A stretch of 64,000 bases of DNA from Ancylobacter sp. Lp-2 (lineage in GTDB: Bacteria > Pseudomonadota > Alphaproteobacteria > Rhizobiales > Xanthobacteraceae): contig NZ_JAJALI010000001.1 of NCBI RefSeq assembly GCF_020523795.1, forward strand, positions 62,001 through 126,000. Reading direction: 5' to 3'. The notes beneath the pieces were generated by a model, which was not told where the DNA came from, made no database searches, and saw nothing but the letters and a program-made list of their open reading frames with translations. The position numbers and the translations under genes were made by a program. Of this stretch, positions 10,524 to 29,764 are shown one piece after another. Position 1 is the first letter of the stretch. Each line of letters starts with the position of its first letter.

Positions 10524-10705
10524 TAGTCTCAGGTCTGCCAAGGCCTCCTGTTGGGCGAACGTCGAATGTCCGATTTTGGGCCGCGGCCGTTGCCCGACCA
10601 ATGACCGAGATGGCGGCGCAAAGCGGACGTTCGCCGCCGCGTGACGGAGGTTCCGCTTAGGGTCAGATTCAGAAGGGGCCGAGCGCAGACGGACGCTGCC
10701 GTCTG

Positions 10706-14280: not shown

Positions 14281-14394
14281 CGGGACACCTGTCCACGTCA
14301 GCCCAATTTCCAGTCGAGAGCTGAAGGACGCCTGCCGCAACGGTGAAGGAGGAGGTCAGGCTGAGTGCTTGACCTCCCGTTCTTTGCCGTTCGC

Positions 14395-14663: not shown

Positions 14664-15169
14664 CTTTTGCCAATCAGACCAAGAAGCAGCATGCCGAAAG
14701 CGGACCTTGGGAGGTTCCGCCCAGGGTCAGCACCGGCCGAGTGACCTTCGGTAGTGGCGTTACCGCTTCACGGTGGTGCCTGTCGAAAAACAGGTGTTAA
14801 TCGATCATCGCCGCCGCAGCTTGTGACCTCAGCCTCGGCAGCCCGAAAGGGTGCGCGAAAAACATCGTCGCATTGGCAGAATGTATGGAAATGCGCGGGC
14901 GACGTTTTCTGGTCAATAGGTCACCCGCCTGCGTCAGTTTAATCTACCAGGTATTTGCCGGCGATGCGGCGACATAACTGACTCTAAGGCCGTCGCTCGA
15001 AATGTCCGCTCACCGAAACAATTGTTGTACTGTCGACCCCAGCGAACTGCTCACGCAAAGTGTGGGTCTGGTTCGAAATATTCAATCAGCAGTTCGGCGC
15101 ACCTTCCGCGTGGGATACCGAGTAGGCGGGCGGACAACATGTGCCGCGGCAGACGGAGGCGGATAATCG
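14664..15169. other. Non-coding scrap
   Basis: About 500 bp in which I find no gene with a ribosome-binding site, domain or convincing codon pattern. A 62-codon plus frame at 14754-14942 has no recognisable features. Confidence 0.4.
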
Positions 15170-15570
15170 AACGCCCGGACATGGCGCTACGCCAGACGTT
15201 GCGCCCGTCATGACGCCGAGCGACAGCACGAGGCCCGCCCGCGCGGTCTCCAGCACCTGTGCCAGTTGATCCGGTGTCCGCACCAGTTCGAGATGCCGGC
15301 GACCGGCAAAGCGAGCACGGTGTCGAGGTTATCGCCCAGCCTGCCAGAATAGGAAGTCAGTATGAGCTTCGGCAGCGCATGAGCGAAGAAGCCATAGGCC
15401 TCCCACTGCGCCGCATGTGTCGCTACGTCGAGATCAAGCACCAGGCAGGGCTCGTTCATCTGGGCCCGTTCGGCACCGGAAGCGGAAAGCTGTCGCAACA
15501 CCTCGACATAGACCGGCAGCAAGCCGCCGAGTTGCACCGGACGAATCTGGCACGCTAGCGGCGTCGGCGG
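15170..15570 (-). pseudogene. metE fragment (cobalamin-independent methionine synthase)
   Basis: A minus-strand frame reads GGLLPVYVEVLRQLSASGAE, then QMNEPCLVLDLD, then LTSYSGRLGDNLDTVLALPVAGI. These match the late part of the N-terminal half of MetE. After a frame change near 15285 the homology continues as VRTPDQLAQVLETARAGLVLSLGVMTG. Both ends of the gene are missing. It is a dead relic of a housekeeping gene in a region full of mobile-element debris. Confidence 0.75.
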
Positions 15571-15896
15571 AGACCTTCGTAGACAAAGTGCCCTCCGCCG
15601 GTGCGACAATTGTGGGGAGTTCGTGGCACTTTACGGCGACGTGGGCATGGCCATCCCGGAACCGACCTACCGCGCGTGAAGTCGGCCCGGCAGGTCCCGC
15701 TCCACCTGCGTGGCGTCCTCGTCGAACGGGCCGCTCGGCTCGGCTTCCTGGATAGCGAAGCGGCTTGAATAGCATTCGGCGGAGCGATGCTGAGAGCGTT
15801 GGCCGTCTTTACGTGCATAGGCTACACCGTGATGCCGGTGGTGTGAAACGTCGGCTCCCCACTTTGGTCCTGATTCCGGCCGCTGCCACCCGCCGC
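15571..15896. other. Region without a supportable gene
   Basis: Between the metE relic and the IS3-type element end. Open frames on both strands look like GC-driven shadows, and no start signal or domain is visible. Confidence 0.35.
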
Positions 15897-15998
15897 TGAG
15901 CCTGCCCCCGATGTTGGACCGGCCTGCTGGCCGCTTCCAGGGGGTAATGAGCCTGCCCCCGATGTTGGACCGGCCTGCTGGCCGCTTCCAGGGGGTAA
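15897..15998. repeat. Perfect 51-bp tandem duplication at the IS end
   Basis: Two identical 51-bp units, 15897-15947 and 15948-15998, each start TGAGCCTGCCCCCGATGTTG and end CAGGGGGTAA. Each unit contains the left terminal repeat of the adjacent IS3-type element, so the element has two usable left ends in tandem. Confidence 0.9.
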
Positions 15999-16004
15999 CA
16001 ACGG

Positions 16005-16817
16005 TCACCGCGGGCTGCATGCCGGTGGCCGGTTGACGAGTGATATCGGGGGCTTGTTCCCAATCGCACTATGAGGTCGTAGCTCGTTGTAGTCTCTACG
16101 CCAAGCCTCCACTTTCTCCCGGGCATCGGGCAGGCTCATGAACCAGTGGGCGTTGAGGCATTCCGTGCGGAACTTGCCGTTGAACGACTCGATAAATGCA
16201 TTGTCCGTTGGCGTGCCGGGGCGCGAGAAGTCGAGGGTGACGCCACGCTGATAGGCCCACAGGTCGAGGTCTCGGCTGACGAACTCGGTGCCTTGGTCGA
16301 CCCGGATACTGGCCGGGAAGCCATGGGTAGCACCGACCTGCTCCAGCACTTCGACGACGTCGGCGCCGCGGAAGTTGAAGCGGACGTCCAGTGCCGGTGA
16401 GAACCGGCTGAAGGTATCGACGATGGTCAGCACCCGCAGCTTGCGACCGGTGGCGAGCTGGTCATGGACAAAATCCATCGCCCAGGTCTCGTTGGTCCGG
16501 GTCGCCGGACGGCGATCGTCACGCAGCTTCGCCTTGACGCGACGCTTGGGCGTCTTGTTTCTGAGCTGAAGGCCCAACTCCTTGTAAAGACGATAGATCC
16601 GCTTCGGATTGACATTCCAGCCCTCCCGTTTGAGCAGCACATGAATCCGGCGGTAGCCGTAACGCATGCGCGTCTCGGCGATTTCCTTGATCCGCTGGAT
16701 GAGGCCGGCCTGCCCGGTCCGTCGGGAGCGGTAGTGATAGGTCGAACGCTCGACTGGCAGAGCACGGCAAGCACGACGGATGCTCACCTGCCAGGTTGCG
16801 CGCACATGATCGATCAT
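16005..16817 (-). CDS. IS3-family transposase OrfB (integrase core)
   Basis: A 270-residue DDE transposase. An HTH_21-type segment (YGYRRIHVLLKREGW) precedes the integrase core. The first Asp is in TWAMDFVHDQL, the second in SIRVDQGTEFVSRDLD and the Glu in NAFIESFNGKFRTECL. The C-terminus has the usual YNELRPHSAIG segment. OrfAB fusion is normally made by -1 frameshifting at the end of orfA, consistent with the short gap to 16838. The gene appears intact. Confidence 0.9.
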   Translation of the reverse strand: MIDHVRATWQVSIRRACRALPVERSTYHYRSRRTGQAGLIQRIKEIAETRMRYGYRRIHVLLKREGWNVNPKRIYRLYKELGLQLRNKTPKRRVKAKLRDDRRPATRTNETWAMDFVHDQLATGRKLRVLTIVDTFSRFSPALDVRFNFRGADVVEVLEQVGATHGFPASIRVDQGTEFVSRDLDLWAYQRGVTLDFSRPGTPTDNAFIESFNGKFRTECLNAHWFMSLPDAREKVEAWRRDYNELRPHSAIGNKPPISLVNRPPACSPR

Positions 16818-16837
16818 CGACCGCTGGCGGGCAGGCC

Positions 16838-17104
16838 TCAGAGTTTTCGCCGGATGACGTCCTGCAGCATCTCCTTGTCCAGCGACAGGTCCGCCACGAT
16901 CCGCTTCAGTCGGGCATTCTCTTCCTCGAGCTGTCGCAGCCGCTTCATCTCCGAAGGCATCAGCCCCGCGTACTTCTTGCGCCAGTTGTAGAACGTTGCA
17001 TCGCTGATGCCGGCCTTCCGACAGACCTCGGGAACCGGTGTTCCCTCCTCAGCCTGCCGTAGGATGAAGGCGATCTGCGCCTCCGTGAACGTCGACTTCT
17101 TCAT
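16838..17104 (-). CDS. IS3-family transposase OrfA
   Basis: An 88-residue helix-turn-helix protein (FTEAQIAFILRQAEEG, VPEVCRKAGISDATFYNWRKKY) followed by a leucine-zipper-like helix, RLRQLEEENARLKRIVADLSLDKEMLQDVI. This is the standard OrfA of IS407-type elements. It binds the element ends and supplies the N-terminal part of the frameshifted transposase. Confidence 0.9.
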   Translation of the reverse strand: MKKSTFTEAQIAFILRQAEEGTPVPEVCRKAGISDATFYNWRKKYAGLMPSEMKRLRQLEEENARLKRIVADLSLDKEMLQDVIRRKL

Positions 17105-17189
17105 GCCAAAAAACTCCGTCCGCAGCCCATGCTGCTAAACTGGAATTTTCCAGCAAAGACCGGTCCAGAAAACCGGAGGCAGGTCACCG

Positions 17190-17434
17190 CCTGATCATCG
17201 CATAGGCGTCCGCCTGCATGGGGCGTTAGGTATTGGGTGCCACACGCGATCGTGCGGAACAGCCGCCCTTCGGATCGGTCGTCGGGGAGCAGCCGCCGAA
17301 ATAGGCGGCAGGTAGGGACCCAGATTGTGACGGTAGGGCATCTCATGCCGCTTGCCGCCCTTCTCATGCAGCGGCATCATACGTGCGGAAGGGGCGGAAG
17401 GGGACGCTAGGAAAATCCCAGCCGAAACCCACAA
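17190..17434 (-). pseudogene. Tyrosine recombinase (integrase) fragment
   Basis: A minus-strand frame reads MMPLHEKGGKRHEMPYRHNL. After a frame change it continues RSEGRLFRTIACGTQYLT. This matches the conserved catalytic-domain stretch of XerC/D-like integrases common in proteobacterial islands, which reads like LHEKGGKxHEMPxHHNLE and then GxLFRT. The catalytic R-H-R-Y core is not complete. It is a dead relic lying between the IS3-type element and the AT-rich island, and could mark an older island boundary. Confidence 0.65.
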
Positions 17435-17577
17435 TGAAACGAATTTATCAACTCCGATCGCCCACGCTCTTTAAGGGGCTTAGTCATGACCGTAGCTACC
17501 CGCCGCCAAACTTGACAGTACAATAAGTTTGCCTCGCGCTCTAAGACGACGAAGTCCGAAAATTACGCCGCTTCGCT

Positions 17578-18519
17578 CTATATCGACATCATATAAGATT
17601 CGATCTTCGGAACATATAACGGCAAAACCTGCCTATACGCAGACAATACGTCTGAATGTGAACTCTCTACTACGGTCGAAAACTCTGTCCGGCCGGACGC
17701 AAGTAAGGCAGAAAGGCATTGATGCCTGACACATCCGCCAATTCCTCGTCGGCGGAAAGCAGGATCGACGACCATAAACTCGATATAGGCGGAAGTCATC
17801 GTCATTGCCCTGTCGGTCGCGAGGCAAAACGCAACAGGTTTGCCGCCTATTATCGCGACGATCGATGCTCCATCAATAACGGTTTCGTCGAGAAATTCCT
17901 GAACAAAAAAGTCGATGGGCACCCTATCAGTAGCGAACCAACATGGTATGTCAGAGGCGCTGTTGCGCACCAATGCGGCGATATCATTCACTAGGGTGTC
18001 CTTAACGTCTCTCAGAGCGATCAGCGATACGTCAGGTGCGTCGTAGACTGGTCGAATACGGTCAATTTGCGTATGACTGAGGGGTAGCGTGATATCTAAC
18101 TCGCTCATTACCGATTTAAATCCACTATCCGCAAGCGTTTCAATAAGTCGTACATTCGAATTTTCGACCTGATAGGCTAGATACTTAGCGCCAATTTTCA
18201 TGGCCGCAGATATGCTGTCAGCCACAAAACCCGCTAGATCGCTGCTTTCCGTCTCGCTAGGCGTTCCAATATAGCCAAAGGCGAGATCCGGTCTGTAGAT
18301 CCACGGGTTGACCGCGACAGAAGCGATCGCCCGCGAGTGACTCCGCATGGAGTAGACGATATGGAAAGATGGCGCCCATTCCTGAATTCTCCGTCGATAT
18401 CGCTCCATATAGGCCGCAGCGGGAGCAGCGAATCCCGTGACTTCAAGAGCCGCTGCCAATGCGCCGTGGACAGGAGTTCCGTGGGGAAACTCCATGATCG
18501 CCTCTATCGACCGTGTCAT
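17578..18519 (-). CDS. Tandem GNAT-like protein, last gene of the island operon
   Basis: A 313-residue protein from ATG 18519, with GAGG just upstream; a frame extending to 18555 lacks that signal. The C-terminal half is a clear GNAT domain, with VAIIGGKPVAFCLATDRA and then IEFMVVDPAFRRRGIGGCVR (residues 247-264), the cofactor loop. The N-terminal half looks like a second, degenerate GNAT: LAFGYIGTPSE, then GAKYLAYQVENSNVRLIETLADSGFKSV at 110-137. Tandem GNAT folds include FemX/PacB-type ligases that take amino acids from aminoacyl-tRNA. Given the tRNA and synthetase-like gene in the same operon, such a role is attractive but unproven. Self-resistance acetylation is the simpler alternative. 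Confidence 0.75.
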   Translation of the reverse strand: MTRSIEAIMEFPHGTPVHGALAAALEVTGFAAPAAAYMERYRRRIQEWAPSFHIVYSMRSHSRAIASVAVNPWIYRPDLAFGYIGTPSETESSDLAGFVADSISAAMKIGAKYLAYQVENSNVRLIETLADSGFKSVMSELDITLPLSHTQIDRIRPVYDAPDVSLIALRDVKDTLVNDIAALVRNSASDIPCWFATDRVPIDFFVQEFLDETVIDGASIVAIIGGKPVAFCLATDRAMTMTSAYIEFMVVDPAFRRRGIGGCVRHQCLSALLASGRTEFSTVVESSHSDVLSAYRQVLPLYVPKIESYMMSI

Positions 18520-18716
18520 AATCACCTCGTCGTTGATACACACCGTCAAGCGCACAAAGGAAGTCGTTTGGCGATGGAGTTAGCCCGCTTTAGTCAATTT
18601 GAAATAAGGCAGGATCCCCACCGGGCCCGTCTGTCTACCGATAAACTCCTATCAGCCGGGATAGGCACGGGCTGGACATCGTTATTCAGAACTGGTCTCG
18701 GCCTCCCATCGGAAAC

Positions 18717-18745
18717 ATTATAAATAATTCGCGTAGAAGTTATAA
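18717..18745 (-). promoter_or_regulatory. Possible internal promoter before the GNAT gene
   Basis: On the minus strand a perfect TATAAT lies at 18717-18722, with TTATAA 17 bp further upstream at 18740-18745. It sits in the 244-bp gap after the 628-residue gene and about 200 bp ahead of the GNAT start. The -35 match is poor. Confidence 0.35.
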
Positions 18746-18763
18746 CAACAAGATTGTAACGCC

Positions 18764-20650
18764 CTAATATCGTAACTCGTCAAGTGACACCGCCTCGACG
18801 AGAGCTTCGTCGTGCAACTTGAACGTTTCAAGGTAGGGACGCATTGGGATTGACAGTAATTGAGGCGCAGAAATGGCGACAGGGACCAACCGCCTGAGGT
18901 GAAAAAATCTTAGCTGCCCATTCGCCCGTTGCCTTACCAACTCCGAAAAACGGCGCGGAGTATTGTTATAGGAAGCAAGAACATTGATAAGCACACCGCC
19001 GATATTCGAAAACGACGCGAGGTCTGAAATAGCCGAGAACACGTCCACAAATTTCTTTGAATTCTTGATGCTCTTATCTGATCCCTCAAGCGAGTCGACC
19101 AAGAGACGCACGTTTCGATGTTGATCCGTCACGAGACAGATATTTAATCTACACGTCAACTCATTGTTATCCCAGATCTCGATTTTATTCAAAGTACGAT
19201 CTTGCATTGCAAGTGGTGCACTATCCGCGGCATAGTCACCAAATCCAGTGCAGGAGTACATTCTATCAGATCGACCGTAATCACTCCATGGATCACGTCT
19301 CCATAGACAAAACCATAGTTTATTTGCCGAACGGCAGCGTCTCATATCAGCATCGTCCCCATTAACTAAGTTCTTTAGCGCGGATATCCGTTGATAAAAG
19401 TGTTTATCGCTTGTTTTCTCAAAAAGAATATCGCATATGCTAGATATTCTATCATCCGTAAAAATAAGTGACCTATCGAATAGAGATGGATGGGAACGAA
19501 CCAGTCTAATGCGCGACGACCTGTCCAACATACCTCCCATAATGGAAGTAAGTTCATCTCGTGCAAACGTTATATCTGTCCTTCTCCCACAAAACGCCCA
19601 GGGGCCACACCATCCCGGTCCGAAAGCTCCCCCGAACATCTCAGCATCATACCGAGAGCTAGATGCTGCTTTGCCCTGCATCGCTTCAACTGAAGACTCG
19701 AGCTGTGAAATGATCAACATTTGCGAGTGATAGGATAGGTCGCGCCAATTGTGTAGGAGTGCCGCAACATCGGCATTGGAAAATAGCTGCGGAGACGAGC
19801 TCAATCGATTTGCATCATAATTCCGCAGCGCGTCTATGACCGCAGGCCTGGTGAAAGAAGCCGCATGATTAATATCTAGATCCGATTTGATACCATTCAT
19901 GATATAAAAACAGAGGTAGTCTTCGCCGAATGAAGCCACATCCGTTAATTTATTGAAGACATCATCCAGATTCTCTTTCAACACATTGATCGATAGATAT
20001 TCCAGCAATGTTGTCGTAACGCGCAAACCAAACCGCGTTTGAATTCGCGCAAGCTTCTGGACCTCTTGACCGATATCCAGAGCCGCGACCCGTGCACTGA
20101 GTACGGCAGCGGAAATCATTATGTGGGAGCAGGCAGGGCCCAGACTCTCACGATTATTTGCAACGGCACACATCAATGAACGATAATATTCTACACCGCA
20201 GATCGAAATATTCTTTTCGATGTCGGGGACCGATGAAGAGGTGTTCCCGATTACATATGCCAGCCCGCGACCCGTGTAATGTCTTATAGAATCAAGAAAC
20301 TCGACAATGTCGAGAAGCAATCCAAAACGTTTAAGAAATGGAATCTTACTTAGGATGTAAACCAGTGCGAACGGACTTGACCTGGAAATTGATTCAAATT
20401 TGTCGATCAATTTAAACCATTCGTCTTGTTCAACAAGTATAAGATTGTCCATGCTCTTGAGTGCTTCGAACGTCAACACGAAGCTTCCATGACAAGAATC
20501 ATCCAGCATAGAACGAAATCGACCAGAAATATCCGTCGTGCTATTAGACCCAATGACCGCGTAAACGGCCTCAACGCGCCTTTGCAGAGCGGAAATGAGA
20601 TGTGACCCGCAGCCTAGGTGGTTGGTTGGTGTACTTTCCGGCCGCGACAT
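18764..20650 (-). CDS. Unrecognised 628-residue protein of the island
   Basis: I do not recognise this protein. It starts at ATG 20650 with AGGGAG eight bases upstream. The first 320 residues are predicted largely helical and Leu-rich, with no signal peptide. A Gly/Trp/Cys cluster follows (MFGGAFGPGWCGPWAFCGRR, around residues 340-360). A second aromatic, Cys-containing patch comes near 435-475 (KLWFCLWRRDPWSDYGRS and YSCTGFGDYAAD), then an alternating strand/helix region (IEIWDNNELTCRLNI, RNVRLLVDSLEG). No Walker, PLP, SAM or radical-SAM motif is visible. It lies between the MATE exporter and the tandem GNAT and is probably co-transcribed. A transferase, synthetase or scaffold role is possible. 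Confidence 0.75.
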   Translation of the reverse strand: MSRPESTPTNHLGCGSHLISALQRRVEAVYAVIGSNSTTDISGRFRSMLDDSCHGSFVLTFEALKSMDNLILVEQDEWFKLIDKFESISRSSPFALVYILSKIPFLKRFGLLLDIVEFLDSIRHYTGRGLAYVIGNTSSSVPDIEKNISICGVEYYRSLMCAVANNRESLGPACSHIMISAAVLSARVAALDIGQEVQKLARIQTRFGLRVTTTLLEYLSINVLKENLDDVFNKLTDVASFGEDYLCFYIMNGIKSDLDINHAASFTRPAVIDALRNYDANRLSSSPQLFSNADVAALLHNWRDLSYHSQMLIISQLESSVEAMQGKAASSSRYDAEMFGGAFGPGWCGPWAFCGRRTDITFARDELTSIMGGMLDRSSRIRLVRSHPSLFDRSLIFTDDRISSICDILFEKTSDKHFYQRISALKNLVNGDDADMRRCRSANKLWFCLWRRDPWSDYGRSDRMYSCTGFGDYAADSAPLAMQDRTLNKIEIWDNNELTCRLNICLVTDQHRNVRLLVDSLEGSDKSIKNSKKFVDVFSAISDLASFSNIGGVLINVLASYNNTPRRFSELVRQRANGQLRFFHLRRLVPVAISAPQLLSIPMRPYLETFKLHDEALVEAVSLDELRY

Positions 20651-20784
20651 ATCGTGAATCTCCCTGCATGACGTGATTCAACAGTCGTGATCATCAAACG
20701 CACGTTTCTATCGCAGGTCTGCCGGGCCCCGCACGATCGTACAAGGTCTATTAACAACAGTACGGAACACATCCGCCCACGTCA

Positions 20785-22206
20785 TCACGAACTTTCAGGT
20801 CGCGGCTCAAGGAAACTCTGTTGTGCACCCTTAACAATTAGCGCCAGTCTCGTCGCGAGGATCGCTACAGCCAACAGATTACCTACAACCACGCCGAACC
20901 ATAATCCCAAAACGCCATAATTTAATTGGACGGAGATATAGTATCCAGAACCAATGCCCAAAACTATATAACAAACAAACCCGATAACGAGCGGTGCACG
21001 AGTTTTCCTCAACCCCTTCAGTGCGGCGATGAGGGGAATCTGTATACTGTCGATAACCAGGTAGGCGGCCGCATAAGCGAAGATCCAACGCGCCCACTCT
21101 ACGGCGTCGGCATTGGTTAACGTGTCGGGGTCGATGAAAATTCGTGTCAGTAAAAGTGGAAAGAACAGCATCATCACGAGAAATGGTGCCACGAATATCA
21201 GATTTGATACGGCCCCTATCATCGCGATGGTCCACACAGAATTTGACCCCTGCAAACCTAGGAAGCGTGCCGCGCGTATGGCCACCGCCTCCCGCATTCC
21301 CTCTGGAATGATCAATGCCAGAAGTACAACGCCTATTACAATCTGGTGACCAGCCAAGGCACTTCCACCGTAAGTGCCCACTAATAGATTCAGTGTTAAC
21401 CATAACGACGTTAGAACGAGACTGTTCAGGACTACAGGAATGCCCACACGAAAGTAATCCGCGACAATTTTTACGTCATAGGTAAACGCCGATAATGCGT
21501 GCCTCAGAGATGGATTCATAGGGCGGATATACTGTGACGCGATCTCGGCGGCCAACACACCCCATGCGATCAGAGAACTCGCTACACCTGCGCCGAACAT
21601 ACCCAATGGAGGGATACCATAACCTCCGAACACCAATAGAGTGACCAGGGCGAATTTAGTCAAAGCGGCTATCGAAATCAGCCATACTACCCCCCGTAGA
21701 TCGGACAGGATAGCGCGAAAATCTCTCAACACGGTGAATAGTACTAACGGTAGAACAGCCCACGCGGCACCCCGGCCGTACTCACCAGCCAGGCTAGAGA
21801 CATTGGGTGACTGCCCCATGGCGAGCAGTGCGTCTCCTATGTTATAGGACAGCAACATGACCGGCGCCGACAGTACTATCGAGAGTAGTATGGAATGTCC
21901 GATGACCTGGTGGGTGATTCTGATATTTTCCCTAGCGATCGCATTGCTCGCAAGTATATTGCCAATACCCAAAATGCACAGGCAAAGAGAATACATCATG
22001 TCGCCCGTCACCCGAGTCGCAAGCCCGAGAGCAGCGAGGGGCTCGGCCCCCAGCCGGCCGACGACAATCTTATCAACCAAATACATCACTGTTTCGATCG
22101 CAAAAACTGCAGCGAGAGGAAGCGATATCGCATGCAGGGAGCGCGCCTCTCTAATAATCAACAACGGCATCATACGGCCGACGCATTCAGAAACTCTGTT
22201 CTTCAT
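20785..22206 (-). CDS. MATE-family efflux transporter
   Basis: A 473-residue integral membrane protein with about twelve hydrophobic segments in two repeats. Family features include LPLAAVFAIETVMYLVDKIVVGRLGAEPLAALGLA at the N-terminus and the corresponding IPVVLNSLVLTSLWLTLNLLVGTYGGSALAGHQI of the second half. MATE proteins export cationic or amphipathic small molecules using Na+ or H+ gradients. It starts 13 bp after the methyltransferase stop, in the same operon. No strong ribosome-binding site precedes ATG 22206, so coupling to the upstream gene or a later ATG (residue 12) is possible. It is likely the exporter of the island's product. Confidence 0.9.
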   Translation of the reverse strand: MKNRVSECVGRMMPLLIIREARSLHAISLPLAAVFAIETVMYLVDKIVVGRLGAEPLAALGLATRVTGDMMYSLCLCILGIGNILASNAIARENIRITHQVIGHSILLSIVLSAPVMLLSYNIGDALLAMGQSPNVSSLAGEYGRGAAWAVLPLVLFTVLRDFRAILSDLRGVVWLISIAALTKFALVTLLVFGGYGIPPLGMFGAGVASSLIAWGVLAAEIASQYIRPMNPSLRHALSAFTYDVKIVADYFRVGIPVVLNSLVLTSLWLTLNLLVGTYGGSALAGHQIVIGVVLLALIIPEGMREAVAIRAARFLGLQGSNSVWTIAMIGAVSNLIFVAPFLVMMLFFPLLLTRIFIDPDTLTNADAVEWARWIFAYAAAYLVIDSIQIPLIAALKGLRKTRAPLVIGFVCYIVLGIGSGYYISVQLNYGVLGLWFGVVVGNLLAVAILATRLALIVKGAQQSFLEPRPESS

Positions 22207-22219
22207 GATATGATGCGAC

Positions 22220-22873
22220 TCAGTCTTGCTCGTTCTTGCTATTAACGAATATCAAAATTGTCGTGTGTTGATACCCATATAAATTAAAATTTTCGGAGGA
22301 CTCACACACCACGAATTCTCCCAAAAATATATACAACTTCGATAGTATTTCAACGTACTGGGATATTAGAGGACGCGTCACAACGCCCCCTAATCTTATG
22401 TTAACACATTCTACCAACACGTGAGCATCACGTCTCAGATACCGACGCATACCGCTAAATATGTCCATCAGCGTGACGAGATAGCTGGCGCCTACTGCCG
22501 AGATCAAGGACTTTTCCTCGAAAGGCGGGCTGGTCAGCATCAGGTCGCAAAGCGGGAGGTCGTAGAGCGTTGCATTCTGTGCAACATCATTGAATACATT
22601 CGCATCGGACTGGTGCAGACGACAAACGTCGTATAAGCGTGGATCTGGCTCGAAACCGACTCCAGAAATTCCAAACTCGCTCGCCACCCTAAACGTCGTA
22701 CCTACGCCAGCGAATGGATCCAAAATGTATTCTGCGTCTGAGCCGAATCGCTCGATCAGAAGGCGAACCAATTGATCCGGCATCCGACTTACCGTTGAAC
22801 GAGATGACGTATCGTCGTCAGGTATAGCGGTATTAAGGACACACCATGATCGTGTGGACTTATGATCAAACAC
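22220..22873 (-). CDS. SAM-dependent methyltransferase, DNA-methylase-like fold
   Basis: A 217-residue class I methyltransferase. It has the SAM-binding loop LDPFAGVGTT (residues 51-60), an acidic strand end (GVGFEPDPRL, 71-80) and the catalytic-type motif LTSPPF (113-118), as in amino-methylating N4-cytosine/N6-adenine or Trm11-like enzymes. The short N-terminal VSRMPDQLVRLLIERF helix also resembles that group. It starts with GTG 22873, preceded by GAAGG. The target could be the tRNA just upstream, another nucleic acid or a small-molecule amine. Its place next to a tRNA gene inside a biosynthetic-looking operon makes tRNA or amino-group methylation worth considering. Confidence 0.8.
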   Translation of the reverse strand: MFDHKSTRSWCVLNTAIPDDDTSSRSTVSRMPDQLVRLLIERFGSDAEYILDPFAGVGTTFRVASEFGISGVGFEPDPRLYDVCRLHQSDANVFNDVAQNATLYDLPLCDLMLTSPPFEEKSLISAVGASYLVTLMDIFSGMRRYLRRDAHVLVECVNIRLGGVVTRPLISQYVEILSKLYIFLGEFVVCESSENFNLYGYQHTTILIFVNSKNEQD

Positions 22874-22969
22874 GTGTTCTGCCTTCGTGCATTACTATAA
22901 TGGATCTTTAACATGTATTAGGAGCACTCAATACCAACGCGCCGCATAACAACAACTACGACTCTAGAG

Positions 22970-22991
22970 CGCTGTCAATGAAATGACAGCG
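22970..22991 (-). other. Stem-loop 3' of the tRNA gene
   Basis: A perfect 8-bp stem (CGCTGTCA at 22970-22977, TGACAGCG at 22984-22991) encloses a 6-base loop. It begins 29 bases past the encoded CCA of the tRNA on the minus strand. No T-run follows, so it may be a processing or partial-termination signal between tRNA and methyltransferase gene. Confidence 0.5.
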
Positions 22992-23020
22992 GAATCATAA
23001 CTGAATGCAGCAGTTGTAAT

Positions 23021-23110
23021 TGGCGGAGGGGGGTGAGATTTGAACTCACGATAGGACCATGTCCATAGCTTAGAAAGCTATCGCCTTGAACCACCCGGCG
23101 CCCGCCCCCC
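23021..23110 (-). tRNA. Non-standard class II tRNA, anticodon UCU, encoded CCA
   Basis: Read 23110 to 23021. D-stem GCC/GGC with GG in the loop. Anticodon stem ATAGC/GCTAT with loop TTTCTAA (anticodon TCT at 23074-23072). Long variable arm with stem GGAC/GTCC. T-arm GTGAG-TTCAAAT-CTCAC. 3' end CCCCCTCC-G-CCA. G73 and the long arm are serine-tRNA features, yet UCU is an arginine anticodon that arginine tRNAs carry on class I bodies. Eight bases lie between T-stem and G73 instead of seven, so an 8-bp acceptor is possible with one C-C mismatch. U70 faces a G in any register because the 5' end is all G. The gene lies inside the minus-strand operon. The exact 5' end (23108-23110) is uncertain. Confidence 0.85.
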
Positions 23111-23183
23111 AATTTTTGACGACACTTGAGCGTTTACTCCGAAGGCGTCGAAACGCCGACAGAAATCTCAGAAACTCTGACAG

Positions 23184-24095
23184 CTAATCGCCGGAGTCAG
23201 CACTATTAACGTCGAGTGATGCATAATTTTCTATCGACCGTATGGAAACCTCTGCCAACGACGCCCAGTCTTTGTTACCATCCCCCTCCTGGATTCCAGA
23301 CAGATGCCGGTCACGGAGTACGTCGCCAAACGGCATAGTCAGGCCCACCGATTTACCCGCCTCTATCGCGAGGAGCACGTCCTTCAAACCAAGCTTCAGC
23401 GTAAACGCCGGAGGCTCGTATCGTCGCGATGCAATCAATGAGCCGTAAGTTATATGAACTGGTGCAGTAAATACTGTTTGCGTAAGCGTGTCAATTGTCT
23501 CATGAGCCGAAATCCCGTGCGACCGCGCCAGCGCAACGGCCTCTCCAAACGCCTCAATCGTAGATGCAGTGATAAAATTACCTGCTATTTTTAGTGCATT
23601 AGCCTTGTAAGGCTGTGCGCCTAGATTCCAGGTTCTAACCCCTATCGAGGCGAATACTGCGTCCAGTTTGACAATTGTGTTCTGGTCGCCAGCGGCCAAG
23701 ATATGGAGTCCAGCGGCCTCGGCTATTTCTGTTCGGCCGAAAACAGGCGCCGCGATATAGATCATTTCGCTACTCGCGTGAAGTGCGGTAAGGGAGCGAG
23801 CGAGTGCCACGGATATAGTTGCCATGTTCACATGTACACAACCGGGTCGAGCACAATTGAGGACCATGCTATCGACAAATATCTCGGTGACGGCTGCGTC
23901 ATCTGCAAGCATTGAAATCACGATATCCGATTGGAATACATCAGCCGGTTGATCGACAAGCGAGAGGCCGGGAATGCTCCGGTCCGCGTTAGACAGGGGC
24001 GATCTGTTCCAGCCTACAATCGAGTGGCCGGAATTAATCAAGTTCTTCGAGATCGCTATTCCCATACGGCCGAGGCCAATAAAACCGATTTTCAT
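23184..24095 (-). CDS. Beta-hydroxyacid dehydrogenase (HIBADH-like)
   Basis: A 303-residue NAD(P)-dependent beta-hydroxyacid dehydrogenase / 6-phosphogluconate-dehydrogenase-like protein. The Rossmann motif GFIGLGRMGIAISKNLINSGH is at residues 4-24. The catalytic-Lys helix reads NALKIAGNFITAS (about 165-178), with Lys and Asn in the family spacing. The usual substrate-loop GG motif is replaced by VFGRTEIAEAAGL, so the substrate may differ from 3-hydroxyisobutyrate. Imine reductases belong to this superfamily too. AGGTG precedes the ATG, and the gene follows the synthetase-like gene by 23 bp. In the operon it could reduce a keto, semialdehyde or imine intermediate. Confidence 0.85.
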   Translation of the reverse strand: MKIGFIGLGRMGIAISKNLINSGHSIVGWNRSPLSNADRSIPGLSLVDQPADVFQSDIVISMLADDAAVTEIFVDSMVLNCARPGCVHVNMATISVALARSLTALHASSEMIYIAAPVFGRTEIAEAAGLHILAAGDQNTIVKLDAVFASIGVRTWNLGAQPYKANALKIAGNFITASTIEAFGEAVALARSHGISAHETIDTLTQTVFTAPVHITYGSLIASRRYEPPAFTLKLGLKDVLLAIEAGKSVGLTMPFGDVLRDRHLSGIQEGDGNKDWASLAEVSIRSIENYASLDVNSADSGD

Positions 24096-24118
24096 GCGTC
24101 ACCTGATACACGTTATAG

Positions 24119-25429
24119 CTATTTTATGCGCCCCTGGTCTCCCTTCGAGACATGTCGATGTTGAGCGTAAACATTTTTGTAGTCCTCTCCTATCACTTTG
24201 CCACCTCGCCCCTCGACGACGGCGATGGCAATATCCCGAGGGAGGCCATGTCGGCCGTTTAGACTGATAAGGTCCGTCTCGCTGACTTCCAAGGATTGCC
24301 GTCCGAGTAATTCGTCCAAATCGTCCATGCCGCGTCTGAGTGGAGTTTCAAACGAACGAATCTCCCCTGCGACTGTAATAGACGTCTGGTAAAGCGTCGC
24401 TTTGAGATGCGGATAACGCCTGCCCAGCTGGTCAGTCGCTAGATGAAGAAGATCGGAAAGATCGTTATCCCACTCTCCATGTGCTGCAAATACAGCGTAG
24501 GCGCGCCTTATTAATCGACGTAGTACATGTGAGGGACCGTCCCGCCCTGGCTTGACGCCCTCAGCCGCAATCGCTGATATTGCACGAATATGATCTACGA
24601 CCTTCCGCCCCTGAGAGAGATCACGCCCTGTGGAGTGCAATCTGCAATCAGCTCTGACCTGCGCCAATAAAATAGACATCTCATCGGTATCATATACGGA
24701 GGGCACCTCTTGAACCACAGACGCCAAACGTTCAAGGCCGGCACCCGCCGCCAAGCCAGGGCCCGCTATGGACTGCATGTGCCCATCCGCGGACTTGTGG
24801 TATTCCAAGAATACACCTGCGTTCCATATTTCCATGAAACGCTCGTCGGTGTCGTCCTCCGGGAATCTTTCCGGCAAGGGGCCTCCTAAACGATCGTAGT
24901 GGATTTCTGTACATGGACCGCACGGACCATCCGCGCCGGCCGGCCCCCAGAAATTATCTTTGCCGAGAAAGAAAATCTGATCCGAGCGCAGTCCGAGCTC
25001 TCTCCAGATATCAATTGAAGTGATGTCAGGTGGTATATTTTTTTCCGTATCTCCTTTAAATACCGTCACAACGAGTCGATTCGCTGGGATTCGGAGAGTT
25101 TCTGTTAGGAATAACCATGCATTTGTGATGCTTCCGCGGCGATCAACGTTACCAAACGACCAGTTTCCTAGCATCTCAAAGTACGTGAGATGCTTGACAT
25201 CGCCGACATCGACCAAGTCGACGGTTCTGATGCACGGTTGAGCATTATACATTCGGCTGTGCGGCGCTTTTGCGTCTCCACAGAAATACTTTTTAAACGG
25301 CACCATCCCGCTTATGATAAACATAAGATCTGGATCGTCATTTGCAACAACGGGAACGGGTTTAATAAATTTCCGACCGGAACGTTCATAGCATTCAAGG
25401 AATTTGTTATGTAGATCAGTAATAAGCAT
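24119..25429 (-). CDS. Half-length alanyl-tRNA-synthetase-like protein
   Basis: A 436-residue AlaRS paralogue with only the class II catalytic core and part of the tRNA-recognition domain. The editing domain and C-Ala (normally to about 875 residues) are absent. Motif 2 is QPCIRTVDLVDVGDV then YFEMLGNWSFG. The adenylate region is DNFWGPAGADGPCGPCTEI. Motif 3 is GAGLERLASV at 229-238. The domain VVDHIRAISAIAAEGVKPG then VLRRLIRRA follows. Aligned by eye with recalled E. coli AlaRS, the amino-group-gripping Asp235 is Ala227 (ungapped context). The G3:U70-reading Asn303 and Asp400 correspond to Arg296 and Gly392. Activation of an unusual acid, charging the neighbouring tRNA or acting without tRNA, is inferred. 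Confidence 0.88.
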   Translation of the reverse strand: MLITDLHNKFLECYERSGRKFIKPVPVVANDDPDLMFIISGMVPFKKYFCGDAKAPHSRMYNAQPCIRTVDLVDVGDVKHLTYFEMLGNWSFGNVDRRGSITNAWLFLTETLRIPANRLVVTVFKGDTEKNIPPDITSIDIWRELGLRSDQIFFLGKDNFWGPAGADGPCGPCTEIHYDRLGGPLPERFPEDDTDERFMEIWNAGVFLEYHKSADGHMQSIAGPGLAAGAGLERLASVVQEVPSVYDTDEMSILLAQVRADCRLHSTGRDLSQGRKVVDHIRAISAIAAEGVKPGRDGPSHVLRRLIRRAYAVFAAHGEWDNDLSDLLHLATDQLGRRYPHLKATLYQTSITVAGEIRSFETPLRRGMDDLDELLGRQSLEVSETDLISLNGRHGLPRDIAIAVVEGRGGKVIGEDYKNVYAQHRHVSKGDQGRIK

Positions 25430-25471
25430 GTTACCGCCCCGGTACTGAGATGGAAGATAGATTCGTATGTA

Positions 25472-26473
25472 TTATATTTTATAGTATGACGGTTCGCCTC
25501 CCCCCTCGAAATGATACATCAGTGACTTTGTTGCGCTATCTGCCATTTCCGACCACGAGTCTGGCGTCAAGCAACCTACGTATGGCGTCGTCAGAAAGCG
25601 GTTATCGGGAAGCTCAAGAATCTCTCTGGGTAGATTTATGCCTCTGCCATCTTTTAAAATGGGTGCCACATCCCAGTTGAAGTCGTCGATTGATGCCCCC
25701 GCAATTTGACCATTGCGCAATGCATCATAAAGCGCTGGCCCGTCGACGAGCGCAGCATGCGCTGTATTAATCAGAATAGCATCTGACTTCATTCGGTTAA
25801 GTTTATCACCATCTATCATAGCCATGGTCGATTGATTTAGTTCGCACATTAGTACGATCACATCACAGTTCGATACCAGAACATCGATGTCAACGTACCG
25901 AATGTTTAATTCCTGTTCAATTTCCATGTGTCTTCTTCGGCTATTATAAACTACGACGGCCCCGAATCCACTCGATAATGTTCTCGCTAGACGTTTCCCA
26001 GCATTTCCCATACCGATAATTCCGACGGTCGAATTCGACAGCTGTGGGGCGAATTCCTGAATAATGCGACCTGATTTTTGGTTGTTATTTAAGTATGTTA
26101 TTTGTCTGCGTAGGGATAGGATATGAGCAATAGCAAGTTCCGACATCGCGGAACGCATTGCTTGCATTCCGGGGGTATTCGTTACCTTCACACCCATTTC
26201 GATGGCAGCACTAACGTCGATCAGATGTTCGGCGCCGATCGCCAAGCATGCGATCAATTTTAGCCGCGTTGATCGTGCAATAATCTCACGTGTGACGAAC
26301 TCGTCTCCACCCAGTAGATATCCATCGGCGTTGCGAACCGCGCTTTCTAAGCGCTCTGGATCGGGGGATATCTCATCGAATATTGTCAACTCATAGAGAT
26401 TAGTTGAGAGTCGGTCGATATATCGCCTATTGATACGGCGACCGCCTGTGACCACAATTTTGATTTCCGCCAT
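25472..26473 (-). CDS. D-2-hydroxyacid-dehydrogenase-like protein with altered active site
   Basis: A 333-residue protein from ATG 26473, with GGAG upstream; a longer frame to 26527 lacks such a signal. The NAD-binding motif is TVGIIGMGNAGKRLARTL, and the overall fold order matches D-2-hydroxyacid dehydrogenases. All three catalytic residues appear changed. The Arg of the NTARG motif is His (INTAHAALVD, about residue 239). The Glu of DVFxxEP is Asp (IDDFNWDVAP). The acid-base His of TPHxG is Tyr (TTPYVGCLTPDSW). It may reduce a different group or bind without the standard chemistry. It follows the aminotransferase by 23 bp in the operon. Confidence 0.82.
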   Translation of the reverse strand: MAEIKIVVTGGRRINRRYIDRLSTNLYELTIFDEISPDPERLESAVRNADGYLLGGDEFVTREIIARSTRLKLIACLAIGAEHLIDVSAAIEMGVKVTNTPGMQAMRSAMSELAIAHILSLRRQITYLNNNQKSGRIIQEFAPQLSNSTVGIIGMGNAGKRLARTLSSGFGAVVVYNSRRRHMEIEQELNIRYVDIDVLVSNCDVIVLMCELNQSTMAMIDGDKLNRMKSDAILINTAHAALVDGPALYDALRNGQIAGASIDDFNWDVAPILKDGRGINLPREILELPDNRFLTTPYVGCLTPDSWSEMADSATKSLMYHFEGGGEPSYYKI

Positions 26474-26496
26474 AAAACGCTCCGTTATGACGAATT

Positions 26497-27624
26497 CTAT
26501 ATACGAACGGTGCTTAATATATCGCAAGCCGTTCTAAATACTTTGTCTGATTTCAGTAGTGAAAACCGTACATATCGTTTACCTAGTTCTCTATTTCGCC
26601 AATAAAAATACCGCCCTGGCAGGCAGCCAACGCGAGACTTCATTAGTAAATCCACAACATCGACGTCGCACACGCTCGGGTCAGCTATTTCGATCCAGTC
26701 GACCGGCAGAATGTTATCGACTGAGCTATCCGGAACCGAAAATATCGACTTGTCGAGTGATGACCTTAGCCGGCTTCGCCGTTGCCTTACGAGCCTCCAC
26801 AGACCATCCGAAAGCCCCGAGTTCAGCGTGCTCTTAACGAACTCTCCAGCTACCATCGTCGTAAATGGGGAAATATGTAGAATGATCTCTGCATAAATAT
26901 TTTCTAGCTCATTAGATAAATTCTTCGAATACGTCAGCACACTAACCTTCATATCCAGCGTCGGCCATGTTTTTCCTGTGTCTTCGATCGCTATATAACT
27001 TACACCCGCGTCTCGAAGTAACTGAAAAACATCACCCACTGGCGGCGCAAAGAATCGGAAACAGAAATCGAATATTAACACTTTACTATTTTTACGCGCC
27101 CAAACAGCCAATCGCTCGTAGAATGCGAAGTTTGGATAACGACCCGTTGGATTATTTGGGCAGACAATTAATATTGCATCGACTTCAAGGCGATCAAAAT
27201 TTGAAGTAAATTCATCATGATAGAGCAAATCCTCATTAATCGGAGTCGTGTGCACACTCCATCTTTGCATTATTTGAGATAGATTGTCGAATGTTGGCTC
27301 AATCAGTCCAAGAGTCAGTGAATTACGCGACAGCCATGCGGCTACCATATCGATTGACTGAGATGCGCTTGTGCAAAGCCGAAAGAACGTATTATCAATT
27401 TGAGATCGTTGCTCGGCGAGCGTATAAAATGCGTTTACGAAATCTAGTTCGATAGACGAATGTTTGGAATTCTTTGAGGTACTCCATAAACTTGATAGAC
27501 GGTCAATTACCTTTTGCTGTTCTTCGTCCGGATCATGGTATGCATGACCATCAGCCAAGCTGAAGGTATGATCTAATGCAAAATCTTCAGCCATCGTTAG
27601 GCAATATGTTCGTTTGTCGACCAT
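26497..27624 (-). CDS. Fold-type I PLP aminotransferase
   Basis: A 375-residue class I/II-like aminotransferase. The cofactor-binding features are CPNNPTGRY (Asn-Pro-Thr-Gly loop), IFDFCFRFF (Asp pairing with the pyridine nitrogen, with Phe where Tyr is usual), the PLP lysine in EDTGKTWPTL (about residue 218) and a C-terminal RYVRFSLL arginine for the substrate carboxylate. ATG 27624 (or TTG 27627) follows AGAGG at a rather long distance. It is the first gene of the island operon. Relatives include aspartate-type aminotransferases and PLP enzymes such as capreomycidine synthase. It probably makes or removes the amino group of the pathway's building block. Confidence 0.83.
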   Translation of the reverse strand: MVDKRTYCLTMAEDFALDHTFSLADGHAYHDPDEEQQKVIDRLSSLWSTSKNSKHSSIELDFVNAFYTLAEQRSQIDNTFFRLCTSASQSIDMVAAWLSRNSLTLGLIEPTFDNLSQIMQRWSVHTTPINEDLLYHDEFTSNFDRLEVDAILIVCPNNPTGRYPNFAFYERLAVWARKNSKVLIFDFCFRFFAPPVGDVFQLLRDAGVSYIAIEDTGKTWPTLDMKVSVLTYSKNLSNELENIYAEIILHISPFTTMVAGEFVKSTLNSGLSDGLWRLVRQRRSRLRSSLDKSIFSVPDSSVDNILPVDWIEIADPSVCDVDVVDLLMKSRVGCLPGRYFYWRNRELGKRYVRFSLLKSDKVFRTACDILSTVRI

Positions 27625-27692
27625 CAATTCGGTGCCTCTTACTGGAGGAGCTAAATCTATTAGCGTTGATGAAGTCGTGAGAGGACATAGAT

Positions 27693-27721
27693 ATTATTTA
27701 TGGAATGATTTATGCCGTCAA
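27693..27721 (-). promoter_or_regulatory. Sigma-70-like promoter of the island operon
   Basis: On the minus strand TTGACG (27721-27716) and AATAAT (27698-27693) are separated by exactly 17 bp. Both hexamers match consensus at five of six positions. It lies about 70 bp upstream of the aminotransferase start and points into the cluster. Confidence 0.65.
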
Positions 27722-27729
27722 CTCTGAGT

Positions 27730-28249
27730 TTCCGATTGTTAGCGGACGAATCTTTAGTTGTAAAGTGGATTCGGATACGTGGAAGCGAAAATGATTTCGA
27801 TCAAGAAAAAAGCTGAAGTTATATTGGTAATGATTCGATTGTTGATTCAATTCGATTTGATTGTAGCTAAGAGGGGCGGCTCCCTGTGATGGGCTGACAT
27901 TGCATCTTTCACGGAGTCGACTAATTATTAGTCCGTCCGCCTGGTCACAGCCTTGTCACGAACCTGCAATTTTCGTTTGTCCGTGAGGAAATGGAATGCG
28001 AATATTTTCAAGGTGTGTGTTACGGGAAATCACAGCCCCTATGTGGCGTATGCGAGAGGCAATCGCTTCCTCGGCAGTGAGGGCAGTTTATCGAGAAGAC
28101 GTTGCACCTGAGCGCTTGGATCATGCATGGATCAGTAGCGGCCGCAGAAGGCGCAGCGCCAGCGCTACACAATGACTGCATGGAAGGCAGCGCCCTAAGA
28201 ACACCGTCGGCCAGCTTGGCCTGCCCCGATTGAGTGCTCCGGTTTCAAT
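27730..28249. other. Gene-free AT-rich flank with a short palindrome
   Basis: About 520 bp between the operon promoter and the degenerate IS3-type transposase. I find no gene. A perfect inverted repeat, GACTAAT-T-ATTAGTC, lies at 27919-27933, about 200 bp upstream of the promoter. It could be an operator or a relic of a mobile-element end. Confidence 0.4.
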
Positions 28250-29095
28250 CTAATGCATGGTCGGCTTCACGGCCACGCTTGACGGCGGCATGATAGTAAC
28301 CGGCGCTGGCGGCTTGTAGCCGAGCGAAGAGTGCGGGCGCCTGGTGTTGTAGTGCTGGCGCCAGCTCTCGATGACAGTCTTCGCCTCGGCGAGGCTGTAG
28401 AAGATCTCACCGTCCAGAAGCTCGTCACGGAGCTTCGCGTTGAAGCTCTCGCAATAGCCATTTTCCCACGGCAAGCCCGGCTCGATGAAGGCCGTCTTCG
28501 CTCCGACGGCTGCGATCCAGTCCCTAACCGCTTTGGCGACGAACTCGGGGCCATTGTCTGAACGCACATGACCCGGCACGCCGCGCAGGATGAAGAGGTC
28601 CGAGAGGACGTCGATGACATCGGTCGACCTGAGCCGCCTATCGATGCGGATCACCAGGCATTCCCGGGTGAACTCGTCGATCACGTCGGCGCAAACGCGG
28701 AGCGTTTGTCGCGAGCATGCGGAACTTCCGGCCGTTGTGGGTGCGGTCCTCGACAAAGTCATAGGACCAGACGTGGTTGGGATGCTCTGGCCGCAGCCGC
28801 ACGCAAGATCCGTCGTTCAGCCAGAGACGCCCCTTCTTCGGCTGCCGCTGAGGCACTTTGAGCCCCTCTCGCCGCCAGATCCGCTCGACGCGCTTGACGT
28901 TCACTGCCCAGCCGGCGGCATGCAGCAACGCTGTGATCCGCCGATGGCCGTAGTGCCCATATTGGGTGGCGAGCTCGACGATATCAGCCGTCAACGCCGC
29001 TTCGTCGGCTCGCCCCATTGGCTGCTTTCGCTGTGTCGAACGCGGCTTCGCAAGGATGCTGCCCCAGAACCCGGCATGCCAATCGCTCCGAAACC
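28250..29095 (-). pseudogene. IS3-family transposase OrfB remnant
   Basis: An OrfB of the IS3 family spread over three frames. From 5' to 3' on the minus strand it reads YGHYGHRRITALLHAAGWAVNVKRVERIWRREGL, LRPEHPNHVWSYDFVEDRTHNGRKFRML, a frame change near 28690, then VIDEFTRECLVIRIDRRLRSTDVIDVL. The second Asp is in VRSDNGPEFVAKAVRDW and the Glu in NGYCESFNAKLRDELLDG. The N-terminus and OrfA are missing because the sequence joins the truncated trbB near 29095. It is a different element from the IS3-type copy at 15948, so the two do not make a composite transposon. Confidence 0.85.
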
Positions 29096-29764
29096 CGGAG
29101 CTTCGGGGCGCAGGCGCAAGCTGGAGCGAACGAGATCCGACAGGGACGCCACGCCATCCTTGGTGCGCATGGCAACGAGGTTCGGCGCGGCGCATTGCAG
29201 TTCACGCGTGTCCTCGATGATGACGACGCGATCGGAGGTCTTCGCCACTTCGGCCAAGAGGGCATTGGTCAGCGTCGTCTTGCCGGTGGACGTCCCGCCT
29301 GCCACGAGGATGTTGGCGCGGGACGCGACGCCTGCACGCAGCGTCTCGGCTTGGCGCGCGGACATGATCCTGGCCTGGACGTAATCGTCGAGCGTGAACA
29401 CGGCGACTGCGGGCTTACGGATGGCGAAGGCCGGCGCCGCCACCACGGGCGGCAGCAGGCCCTCGAACCTCTCTCCTGTCTCCGGCAGTTCGGCCGAGAC
29501 ACGCGGAGCGCCGGCATGAACCTCGGCGCCGACATGGTGCGCGACCAGGCGCACGATCCGCTCCCCATCGGCGGGTGACAGTCGCTCGCCGGTGTCGGAC
29601 AGTCCTTCGGAAAGTCGGTCGATCCAGATGCGCCCGTCCGGGTTCAGCATCACCTCGACGACGGCGGCGTCTTCGAGGAACCGGGCGATGGCCGGGCCGA
29701 GCGCGGTGCGCAGCATCCGCGCGCCCCGCGCCAAGCCTTCCGATTTGTGATGTGCAACGGCCAT
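29096..29764 (-). pseudogene. trbB: trbB, conjugative-transfer ATPase, C-terminus lost
   Basis: A VirB11-type ATPase of the Trb mating-pore system. The N-terminal domain and Walker A (ILVAGGTSTGKTTLTNALL) and B (RVVIIEDTRELQC) are intact. The start at ATG 29764 follows GGGGA. Family similarity stops after LVRSSLRLRPEA near 29095, just where TrbB proteins continue with the RxGEVRG-type segment and His box. The frame then runs to 28991 through transposase sequence. About the last quarter of the enzyme is missing, so it should be inactive. The genes that normally follow (trbC, D, E, J, L, F, G, I) are absent from the window. Confidence 0.88.

Follow-up and report, generated by a model that had tools for sequence, protein, structure and literature searches.

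Why should an operon that seems, judging from its genes, to make a small arginine-derived molecule contain a tRNA gene of its own? We asked this of a 64,000-nucleotide (nt) stretch of the Ancylobacter sp. Lp-2 genome (contig NZ_JAJALI010000001.1, positions 62,001 to 126,000; hereafter the window). It holds a tRNA gene with a UCU anticodon, tRNA(UCU), inside an operon that also encodes a truncated paralogue of alanyl-tRNA synthetase (AlaRS). The analysis covers one island in one genome. We infer, with a probability of about 0.5, that tRNA(UCU) is a functional, non-decoding tRNA that is spared from the elongation factor EF-Tu and acts as aminoacyl donor for a tRNA-dependent biosynthesis by the operon.

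Sequence and fold of the tRNA gene

ARAGORN called a single tRNA gene in the window (23025-23110, minus strand, anticodon tct). The Rfam tRNA family RF00005 matched 23108-23025 on the same strand with 40.5 bits (cut-off 29, E 4e-5), and it was the only family to reach its cut-off in the Rfam scan of the window. By score, this match ranks 46th among the 48 RF00005 matches of the genome, which indicates a real, yet atypical, tRNA. A first-pass annotation of this DNA had listed a long variable arm, G73, an encoded CCA and the UCU anticodon, all of which are seen in 23110-23021 on the minus strand (Table 1; the annotation itself named no strand), as are the eight bases, CCCCCUCC, that it noticed between the T stem and G73.

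The acceptor sets G1-G6, C7, G8 and G9 against this strand. In the 8-pair register, U70 (n84, 23027) faces n3 (23108), which is a G as the annotation had claimed; in the 7-pair register it stands opposite n5, likewise a G. The minimum-energy fold is a cloverleaf in which C7 is bulged and the acceptor has eight pairs; its ensemble frequency is 0.13-0.16. Without a bulge, 7 of the 8 acceptor positions are paired and C7 lies opposite C66. Shuffled sequences folded as well as the tRNA in 7 of 200 cases for the 90-mer and in 1 of 200 when CCA was left out. Acceptor and T stem add up to 13 pairs (8+5), and an alternative 9/4 reading by eye, with G9 in the first T-stem position, gives 13 too. The generic Rfam model, which is the covariance model that was run, does accommodate seven acceptor pairs, one of them non-standard, and its match excludes G73; this is not clearly the placement of an ordinary tRNA with a 7-bp acceptor. 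Most tRNAs have U8 and A14, and if the D-stem GCC occupies positions 10-12, then positions 8, 9 and 14 of tRNA(UCU) are G, C and G. The run of six Gs could hide an assembly error. By eye, GAUAG (n29-33), located at the anticodon stem, may also pair with CUAUC (n57-61), spanning 23050-23082; this alternative to the cloverleaf lies outside the minimum-energy fold.

Table 1. Features of the tRNA gene and of the surrounding operon, in window positions.
Feature	Position	Strand	Details
tRNA(UCU), complete, 90 nt, n1-n90	23110-23021	minus	ARAGORN, Rfam, fold
5' acceptor strand	23102..23110	minus	GGGGGGCGG; G3 = 23108; C7 bulged or mismatched; sequence, fold
D arm	23082..23100	minus	stem CGCC/GGCG, 4 pairs; loop GGGUGGUUCAA, 11 nt; position 20 = U
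Anticodon arm	23065..23081	minus	AUAGC-UUUCUAA-GCUAU, 5-pair stem; anticodon UCU = 23074-23072
Variable region, 15 nt	23050..23064	minus	stem GGAC/GUCC, 4 pairs; loop AUG; linker UAUC, 4 nt
T arm	23033..23049	minus	GUGAG-UUCAAAU-CUCAC, 5/5 pairs; loop UUCAAAU
3' acceptor strand, 8 nt	23021..23032	minus	CCCCCUCC; U70 = 23027; G73 = 23024; CCA encoded
Perfect 8-pair hairpin (inverted repeat)	22970..22991	minus	29 nt 3' of the tRNA; may serve processing or stability
Promoter-like site	27693..27721	minus	upstream of first operon gene; 10/12 bases
Arginine-oxidase homologue (MppP kin), dependent on pyridoxal phosphate (PLP)	26497..27627	minus	
2-hydroxyacid-dehydrogenase-family protein (reductase)	25472..26527	minus	gene overlaps oxidase gene; His at INTAR Arg
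AlaRS-like protein, 436 amino acids (aa)	24119..25429	minus	aminoacylation and tRNA-recognition part only
3-hydroxyisobutyrate-dehydrogenase-family protein	23184..24095	minus	
N6/N4-type methyltransferase-like protein, 217 aa	22220..22873	minus	
MATE efflux transporter	20785..22206	minus	
628-aa protein, orphan	18764..20650	minus	
GNAT protein, 325 aa	17578..18555	minus	GNAT domain in C-terminal half only

Comparison with host tRNAs and known tRNA classes

Besides tRNA(UCU), the RF00005 matches of the host genome comprise one 65-nt fragment and 46 others. Leaving out the matches C13:3275, C31:208589 and C2:21018, we compared tRNA(UCU) with 43 distinct host tRNAs. The 3' acceptor strand has seven bases in 42 of them and eight in tRNA-Sec only, and only the three tRNA-Ala have G3:U70; the two features are combined in tRNA(UCU) alone. 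In a global alignment against 46 host tRNA records (43 distinct), the top four matches were the four Ser isoacceptors (62/95, 59/94, 58/94 and 59/98 aligned columns). Hence, the body is of the serine type, in agreement with the first-pass annotation. All four host tRNA-Ser, and also the host tRNA-Sec, carry A3:U70 together with G73, so a single A-to-G change could have created the alanine signal, as had been suggested. The accompanying idea, that a single change in the anticodon of tRNA-Ser(GCU) gave rise to the gene, is not supported for the host tRNA: Ser(GCU) ranks only fourth among the matches, at 59/98 columns, Ser(UGA) being the best at 62/95, and only in the anticodon loop does Ser(GCU) differ by a single base. 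The 65-nt fragment (C1:171909-171973) is not called as a gene by ARAGORN. Its 3' part resembles, by eye, the host initiator tRNA-Met, and it may be what is left of an integration site.

tRNA(UCU) borrows from several classes. With tRNA-Ser it shares the long variable arm, G73 and a 4-pair D stem with a loop within 8-11 nt, and it is without the 7/5 branch and a Ser anticodon. From tRNA-Ala it has G3:U70, without A73, G20 or a class I body (it has G73, U20 and a class II body). From the A20 plus C35 identity pair of tRNA-Arg(UCU) it has C35, position 20 being a U. Bacterial tRNA-Sec (8/5) is close in other respects, with 8 acceptor and 5 T-stem pairs, a variable arm and G73 as in tRNA(UCU), and the host tRNA-Sec has the same 8-base 3' acceptor strand. 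However, bacterial tRNA-Sec has a 6-pair D stem, a 4-nt loop and usually a UCA anticodon, where tRNA(UCU) has four pairs, 11 nt and UCU. The variable stem of tRNA(UCU) is also short, its G3:U70 contrasts with A3:U70, and tRNA-Sec is a separate gene in the host. The allo-tRNAs (8/4 and 9/3), to which the 8-bp acceptor had been likened, have in common with tRNA(UCU) a serine-type class II body, G73 and a non-serine anticodon (PMC7609411, PMC7590224). Yet their acceptor/T branch has 12 pairs and that of tRNA(UCU) has 13, which sets it apart from allo-tRNAs by definition. The 9/3 form moreover has a long D stem, in contrast to the four pairs found here, and tRNA(UCU), unlike allo-tRNAs, shares its operon with an AlaRS paralogue.

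A divergent AlaRS paralogue

The AlaRS-like protein is encoded two genes upstream of tRNA(UCU) and is homologous to the AlaRS catalytic domain (PF01411, E 8.3e-87). Since it ends at 436 aa, it has no room for the editing and C-Ala domains. It falls below the curated scores of TIGR00344 (316 vs 457) and NF002436 (251 vs 529), full-length models on which truncation lowers the score. We compared it with 97 relatives: 80 genome_contigs loci (the best 80 of 435), nine class genomes, the host, genome G848, E. coli, Salmonella and four short Streptomyces-type proteins. This set is mostly clostridial and contains many near-copies.

The VDTG-motif Asp, which binds the amino group, is found in 97/97 relatives and is Ala in the AlaRS-like protein. 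Asn303 (95/97 relatives) is replaced by Arg, and position 400 (Asp in 41, Glu in 54, Gln in one, a gap in one) by Gly. Asn303 and Asp400 are the readers of G3:U70 in E. coli AlaRS, and with their loss the AlaRS-like protein probably does not use this signal. In total, it differs at 22 of the 86 near-invariant columns. The suggestion that the island AlaRS-like protein reads the alanine signal of the tRNA is thus weakened. In the same line, its peptide at the G3:U70-reading site, Asn-Gly-Arg-His-Gly, departs from the peptide rule given in PMC6451123. Motif-2 Arg68 and motif-3 Arg234 are kept, so the protein may still perform ATP chemistry, and its short motif-2 loop, which clostridial AlaRS have too, does not indicate a loss. 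In a tree of 98 rows made by a quick method, the protein has the longest end branch (9.19) and its position could not be placed.

A truncated synthetase is also known from a natural-product cluster. AcmF (ascamycin) is a truncated AlaRS that, like the AlaRS-like protein, has no Asp-plus-Asn reader of G3:U70 (PMC12945691). The changes differ, being Asn-to-Gln and Asp-to-Glu in AcmF and an Asp-to-Ala with the Asn kept in the AlaRS-like protein, assuming that the positions correspond. AcmD/AcmF and SbzA (SB-203208) are synthetase-like proteins of natural-product clusters, and the accessible part of PMC12945691 mentions no cluster tRNA.

In a search for relatives of the AlaRS-like protein, 78 titles among the best 80 of 435 genome_contigs loci are clostridial, the top blastp score is 254 bits, and the top 12 frames (584-887 aa) are ordinary AlaRS. 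Plasmids gave 69 and 76 matching records; among the matches listed (40 and 60), most are alaS or unannotated and some are Streptomyces 'AlaRS-related' proteins. Four short AlaRS-related proteins (390-398 aa; Streptomyces and Streptantibioticus plasmids) all keep the VDTG Asp, and ARAGORN found no tRNA within 13-31 kb stretches around their genes. Matches occur in 366 of 385 class genomes, the best besides the own copy reaching 242 bits among the matches listed. Viral contigs held no relative of the protein, and a nucleotide search of phages with 23950-25450 gave no match. With the tRNA DNA as query, 15 of 299 related genomes gave partial matches of 26-35 nt and none gave a full-length one, and the 3'-end pattern of the tRNA had no match in viral contigs.

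The operon and its arginine-oxidase pair

The operon comprises eight genes, all on the minus strand, from 27627 to 17578. tRNA(UCU) lies in the 310-nt gap between the 3-hydroxyisobutyrate-dehydrogenase-family and methyltransferase-like genes, the intergenic gaps of the operon being otherwise -31 to 208 nt. The G+C content of the eight genes is 0.486, against 0.62 in ten chosen flanking open reading frames (ORFs), with a trough at 17-28 kb of the window. The operon is flanked by transposase genes with rve and HTH Pfam matches (16005-17104 and 28250-29195); past the right one come the reading frame of a T2SSE-type ATPase and a gene of the TraG/VirD4 type. The low G+C, the flanking transposases and the conjugation-type genes indicate that the island was probably imported by horizontal transfer. 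The T2SSE-type frame (28991-29764) runs into the right transposase region, and this conjugation gene is seemingly cut. The promoter-like site upstream of the first gene may be due to chance, since 17000-28500 contains 13 such sites versus a mean of 16.4 in shuffles.

The oxidase has 7n79, 6c3a and 5dj1 (MppP) as its best solved relatives (E 1.4e-62 to 1.8e-47), 6c3a being RohP and 7n79 an Ind4. It is homologous over most of its length to MppP, RohP and Ind4, which oxidise L-arginine (PMC7497351), and its gene adjoins that of the reductase. Among 397 genomes of the order, 72 had an oxidase match including the own genome, and besides the latter only G848 exceeded 32 bits (222 bits); no relative was found in viral contigs. 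We examined three related loci, namely both matching plasmid records and G848. The oxidase gene adjoins the reductase gene in the Bartonella kosoyi and Streptomyces plasmids; in G848 the two are separated by about 5 kb. The four reductases, whose indolmycin counterpart is Ind5, are mutually 25-29% identical. The catalytic Arg of INTAR is present in none of the four (His in the island; Asp, His and Asn in the others).

Both plasmids have ATP-grasp genes beside the oxidase/reductase pair. In the island, Pfam recognised no ATP-grasp gene, although the family-less 628-aa protein could hide one. None of the three related loci (Bartonella, Streptomyces, G848) contains a tRNA called by ARAGORN. Where the plasmids have ATP-grasp genes, the island carries a GNAT protein, a tRNA and an AlaRS paralogue, which is why we propose that bond formation is tRNA-dependent here. 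The Bartonella kosoyi plasmid, pTLV-1, is typed as mobilizable. Its cluster (6930-16969) holds oxidase-homologue, reductase, FAD oxidoreductase, ATP-grasp, phenylacetate-CoA-ligase-like and MATE genes, and resembles a cluster for an arginine-derived natural product. By eye, the G848 locus (about 11403-18383) has amidinotransferase-like and transporter-like genes near the oxidase homologue and the reductase.

Possible charging and fate of the tRNA

The seryl-tRNA synthetase (SerRS) identity elements, a long variable arm and G73, are present in tRNA(UCU) together with a non-serine anticodon, which makes it a candidate for serylation. Its G1:C72, G2:C71, G3:U70 and G4:C69 are identical to the end of host tRNA-Ala. 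SerRS is thus suggested by G73 and the variable arm, AlaRS by acceptor pairs 1-4. Changing A73 is reported not to impair alanylation (PMC6451123). In E. coli, Ala and Ser were the main residues inserted by natural allo-tRNAs carrying G3:U70, other residues being detected as well (PMC7609411). Candidate amino acids for tRNA(UCU) are Ser, Ala or a non-standard acid. G2:C71, which is required by Weissella FemX (PMC4052509), is also present.

The longer acceptor of tRNA-Sec lowers its affinity for EF-Tu about 100-fold (PMC7609411). By analogy, the long acceptor likely keeps tRNA(UCU) off the ribosome. There is a precedent for donor tRNAs that escape EF-Tu in the non-proteinogenic tRNA-Gly of S. 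aureus. As proposed here for tRNA(UCU), it binds EF-Tu weakly and serves an off-ribosome transferase, in its case as cell-wall donor, but its changes lie elsewhere, in the T stem and at positions 18 and 19 (PMC4052509). It is otherwise an ordinary tRNA-Gly and is not known to lie in a biosynthetic operon.

Proposed role and alternative explanations

If tRNA(UCU) is an aminoacyl donor, it would be transcribed with the operon and excised as a mature tRNA. Its CCA could be loaded by host SerRS through the variable arm and G73, by host AlaRS through G3:U70, or by the AlaRS-like protein independently of G3:U70. The long acceptor would weaken EF-Tu binding, as in tRNA-Sec, so that the charged tRNA would avoid the ribosome and AGA would stay Arg. 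The GNAT or the AlaRS-like protein would then transfer the aminoacyl group to an amine that the oxidase/reductase pair produces from arginine, a step replacing the ATP-grasp ligases of both plasmid clusters, and the MATE pump would export the product. As in this proposal, VlmL/VlmA of valanimycin synthesis and related GNAT-fold transferases combine a synthetase with an aminoacyl-tRNA-dependent transferase in one cluster. That seryl-tRNA system uses tRNA-Ser, and kinship of the GNAT protein with VlmA is not shown.

Several observations weigh against a donor role. C7 is left without a partner and position 14 is G instead of A. The oxidase reaches 148.5 bits on the MppP model TIGR04462, whose cut-off is 450. 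FemX/VlmA-type transferases have a double GNAT fold plus a tRNA helix; in the GNAT protein one Pfam GNAT domain was recognised, in the C-terminal half, and the sequence search gave no link to a FemX-type structure. Single-sequence structure models of the GNAT protein (predicted local distance difference test, pLDDT, 33.5) and of the 628-aa protein (35.6) have low scores because relatives are too few, and the former model is worthless. Relatives of the GNAT protein were absent from plasmids and viral contigs, and the 299 related genomes gave the own copy and one weak 56-residue match. The 628-aa protein had no known family in the searches made, no match in plasmids or viral contigs, and its own copy alone in 200 relatives and 398 phylum genomes; it could be a ligase that needs no tRNA. 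As the host has tRNA-Sec, a SelB, which binds 8-pair tRNAs, may be present. Finally, no second pair of AlaRS-like protein and tRNA was found in genome_contigs, plasmids, class genomes, viral contigs or the 299 related genomes, which leaves conservation of tRNA(UCU) without support.

Some of these traits would suit a decaying gene without a task, imported with the island, for example as an old integration target. The unpaired C7, the G at 14 and the G and C at 8-9 fit such a relic, as do an Rfam score that is the lowest of the class II tRNAs (Sec excepted) and the lack of a full-length relative in the 299 related genomes. Yet every position is paired in the four stems other than the acceptor (T, anticodon, variable, D), the T loop and CCA are intact, the G-rich acceptor has been kept in an island of 48.6% G+C, and neither of the two operon genes that flank the tRNA encodes an integrase. 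We consider a relic doubtful, though it is the rival that we take most seriously. Phages and conjugative elements carry accessory tRNAs, and tRNA(UCU) might instead help to read AGA, which makes up 36 of the 212 arginine codons of the island (17.0%) versus 16 of 488 (3.3%) in the ten flanking ORFs. C35 and A20 are major elements of arginine identity in bacteria (PMC9976931), and the former is present. However, A20 is missing, the body is of the serine type, the host already has its own tRNA-Arg(UCU) (one seen), and the 13-pair branch should weaken EF-Tu binding. Besides, the motif-2 Arg68 of the AlaRS-like protein, in a column that is Arg in 97/97 relatives, is an AGA codon, and a Ser- or Ala-charged tRNA(UCU) at the ribosome would corrupt it. 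Decoding is thus improbable in our view. A recoding of AGA in the island was rejected, as an AGA-encoded invariant Arg68 argues against it.

Two further explanations start from the synthetase. Cluster copies of synthetases can confer self-resistance (AcmD, SbzA; PMC12945691), and the AlaRS-like protein and the tRNA might be decoys or resistant stand-ins against a product that inhibits a host synthetase. A stand-in AlaRS should nevertheless retain the conserved Asp and the G3:U70 residues, both of which are lost here, and we give this little credence. Even less probable is that the tRNA regulates the operon as an RNA, with the AlaRS-like protein turned into a tRNA-binding protein. The 261-nt region around the tRNA is strongly structured (folding z -3.8, 0 of 200 shuffles as stable) and a hairpin follows directly downstream, but the encoded CCA suggests aminoacylation and tRNA is the only Rfam family at cut-off in the window. 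An orthogonal couple, which we regard as unlikely on balance, would have the AlaRS paralogue load the 13-pair tRNA with a non-standard acid, perhaps supplied by the operon's own dehydrogenases, for a transferase to pass on outside translation. The paralogue would do so without the alanine-pocket Asp and without a G3:U70 reader.

Implications

In the literature searched by titles and abstracts, a coverage outside which most subscription papers lie, we found no donor tRNA gene within a biosynthetic cluster. How aminoacyl-tRNA is steered from the ribosome to valanimycin synthesis was called unknown in 2014 (PMC4052509). If our proposal of a donor tRNA is true, a cluster that itself encodes a tRNA poorly accepted by EF-Tu would answer this question of steering directly. 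If, furthermore, the AlaRS paralogue charges tRNA(UCU) with something other than alanine, the two would form a natural orthogonal pair for genetic-code work.
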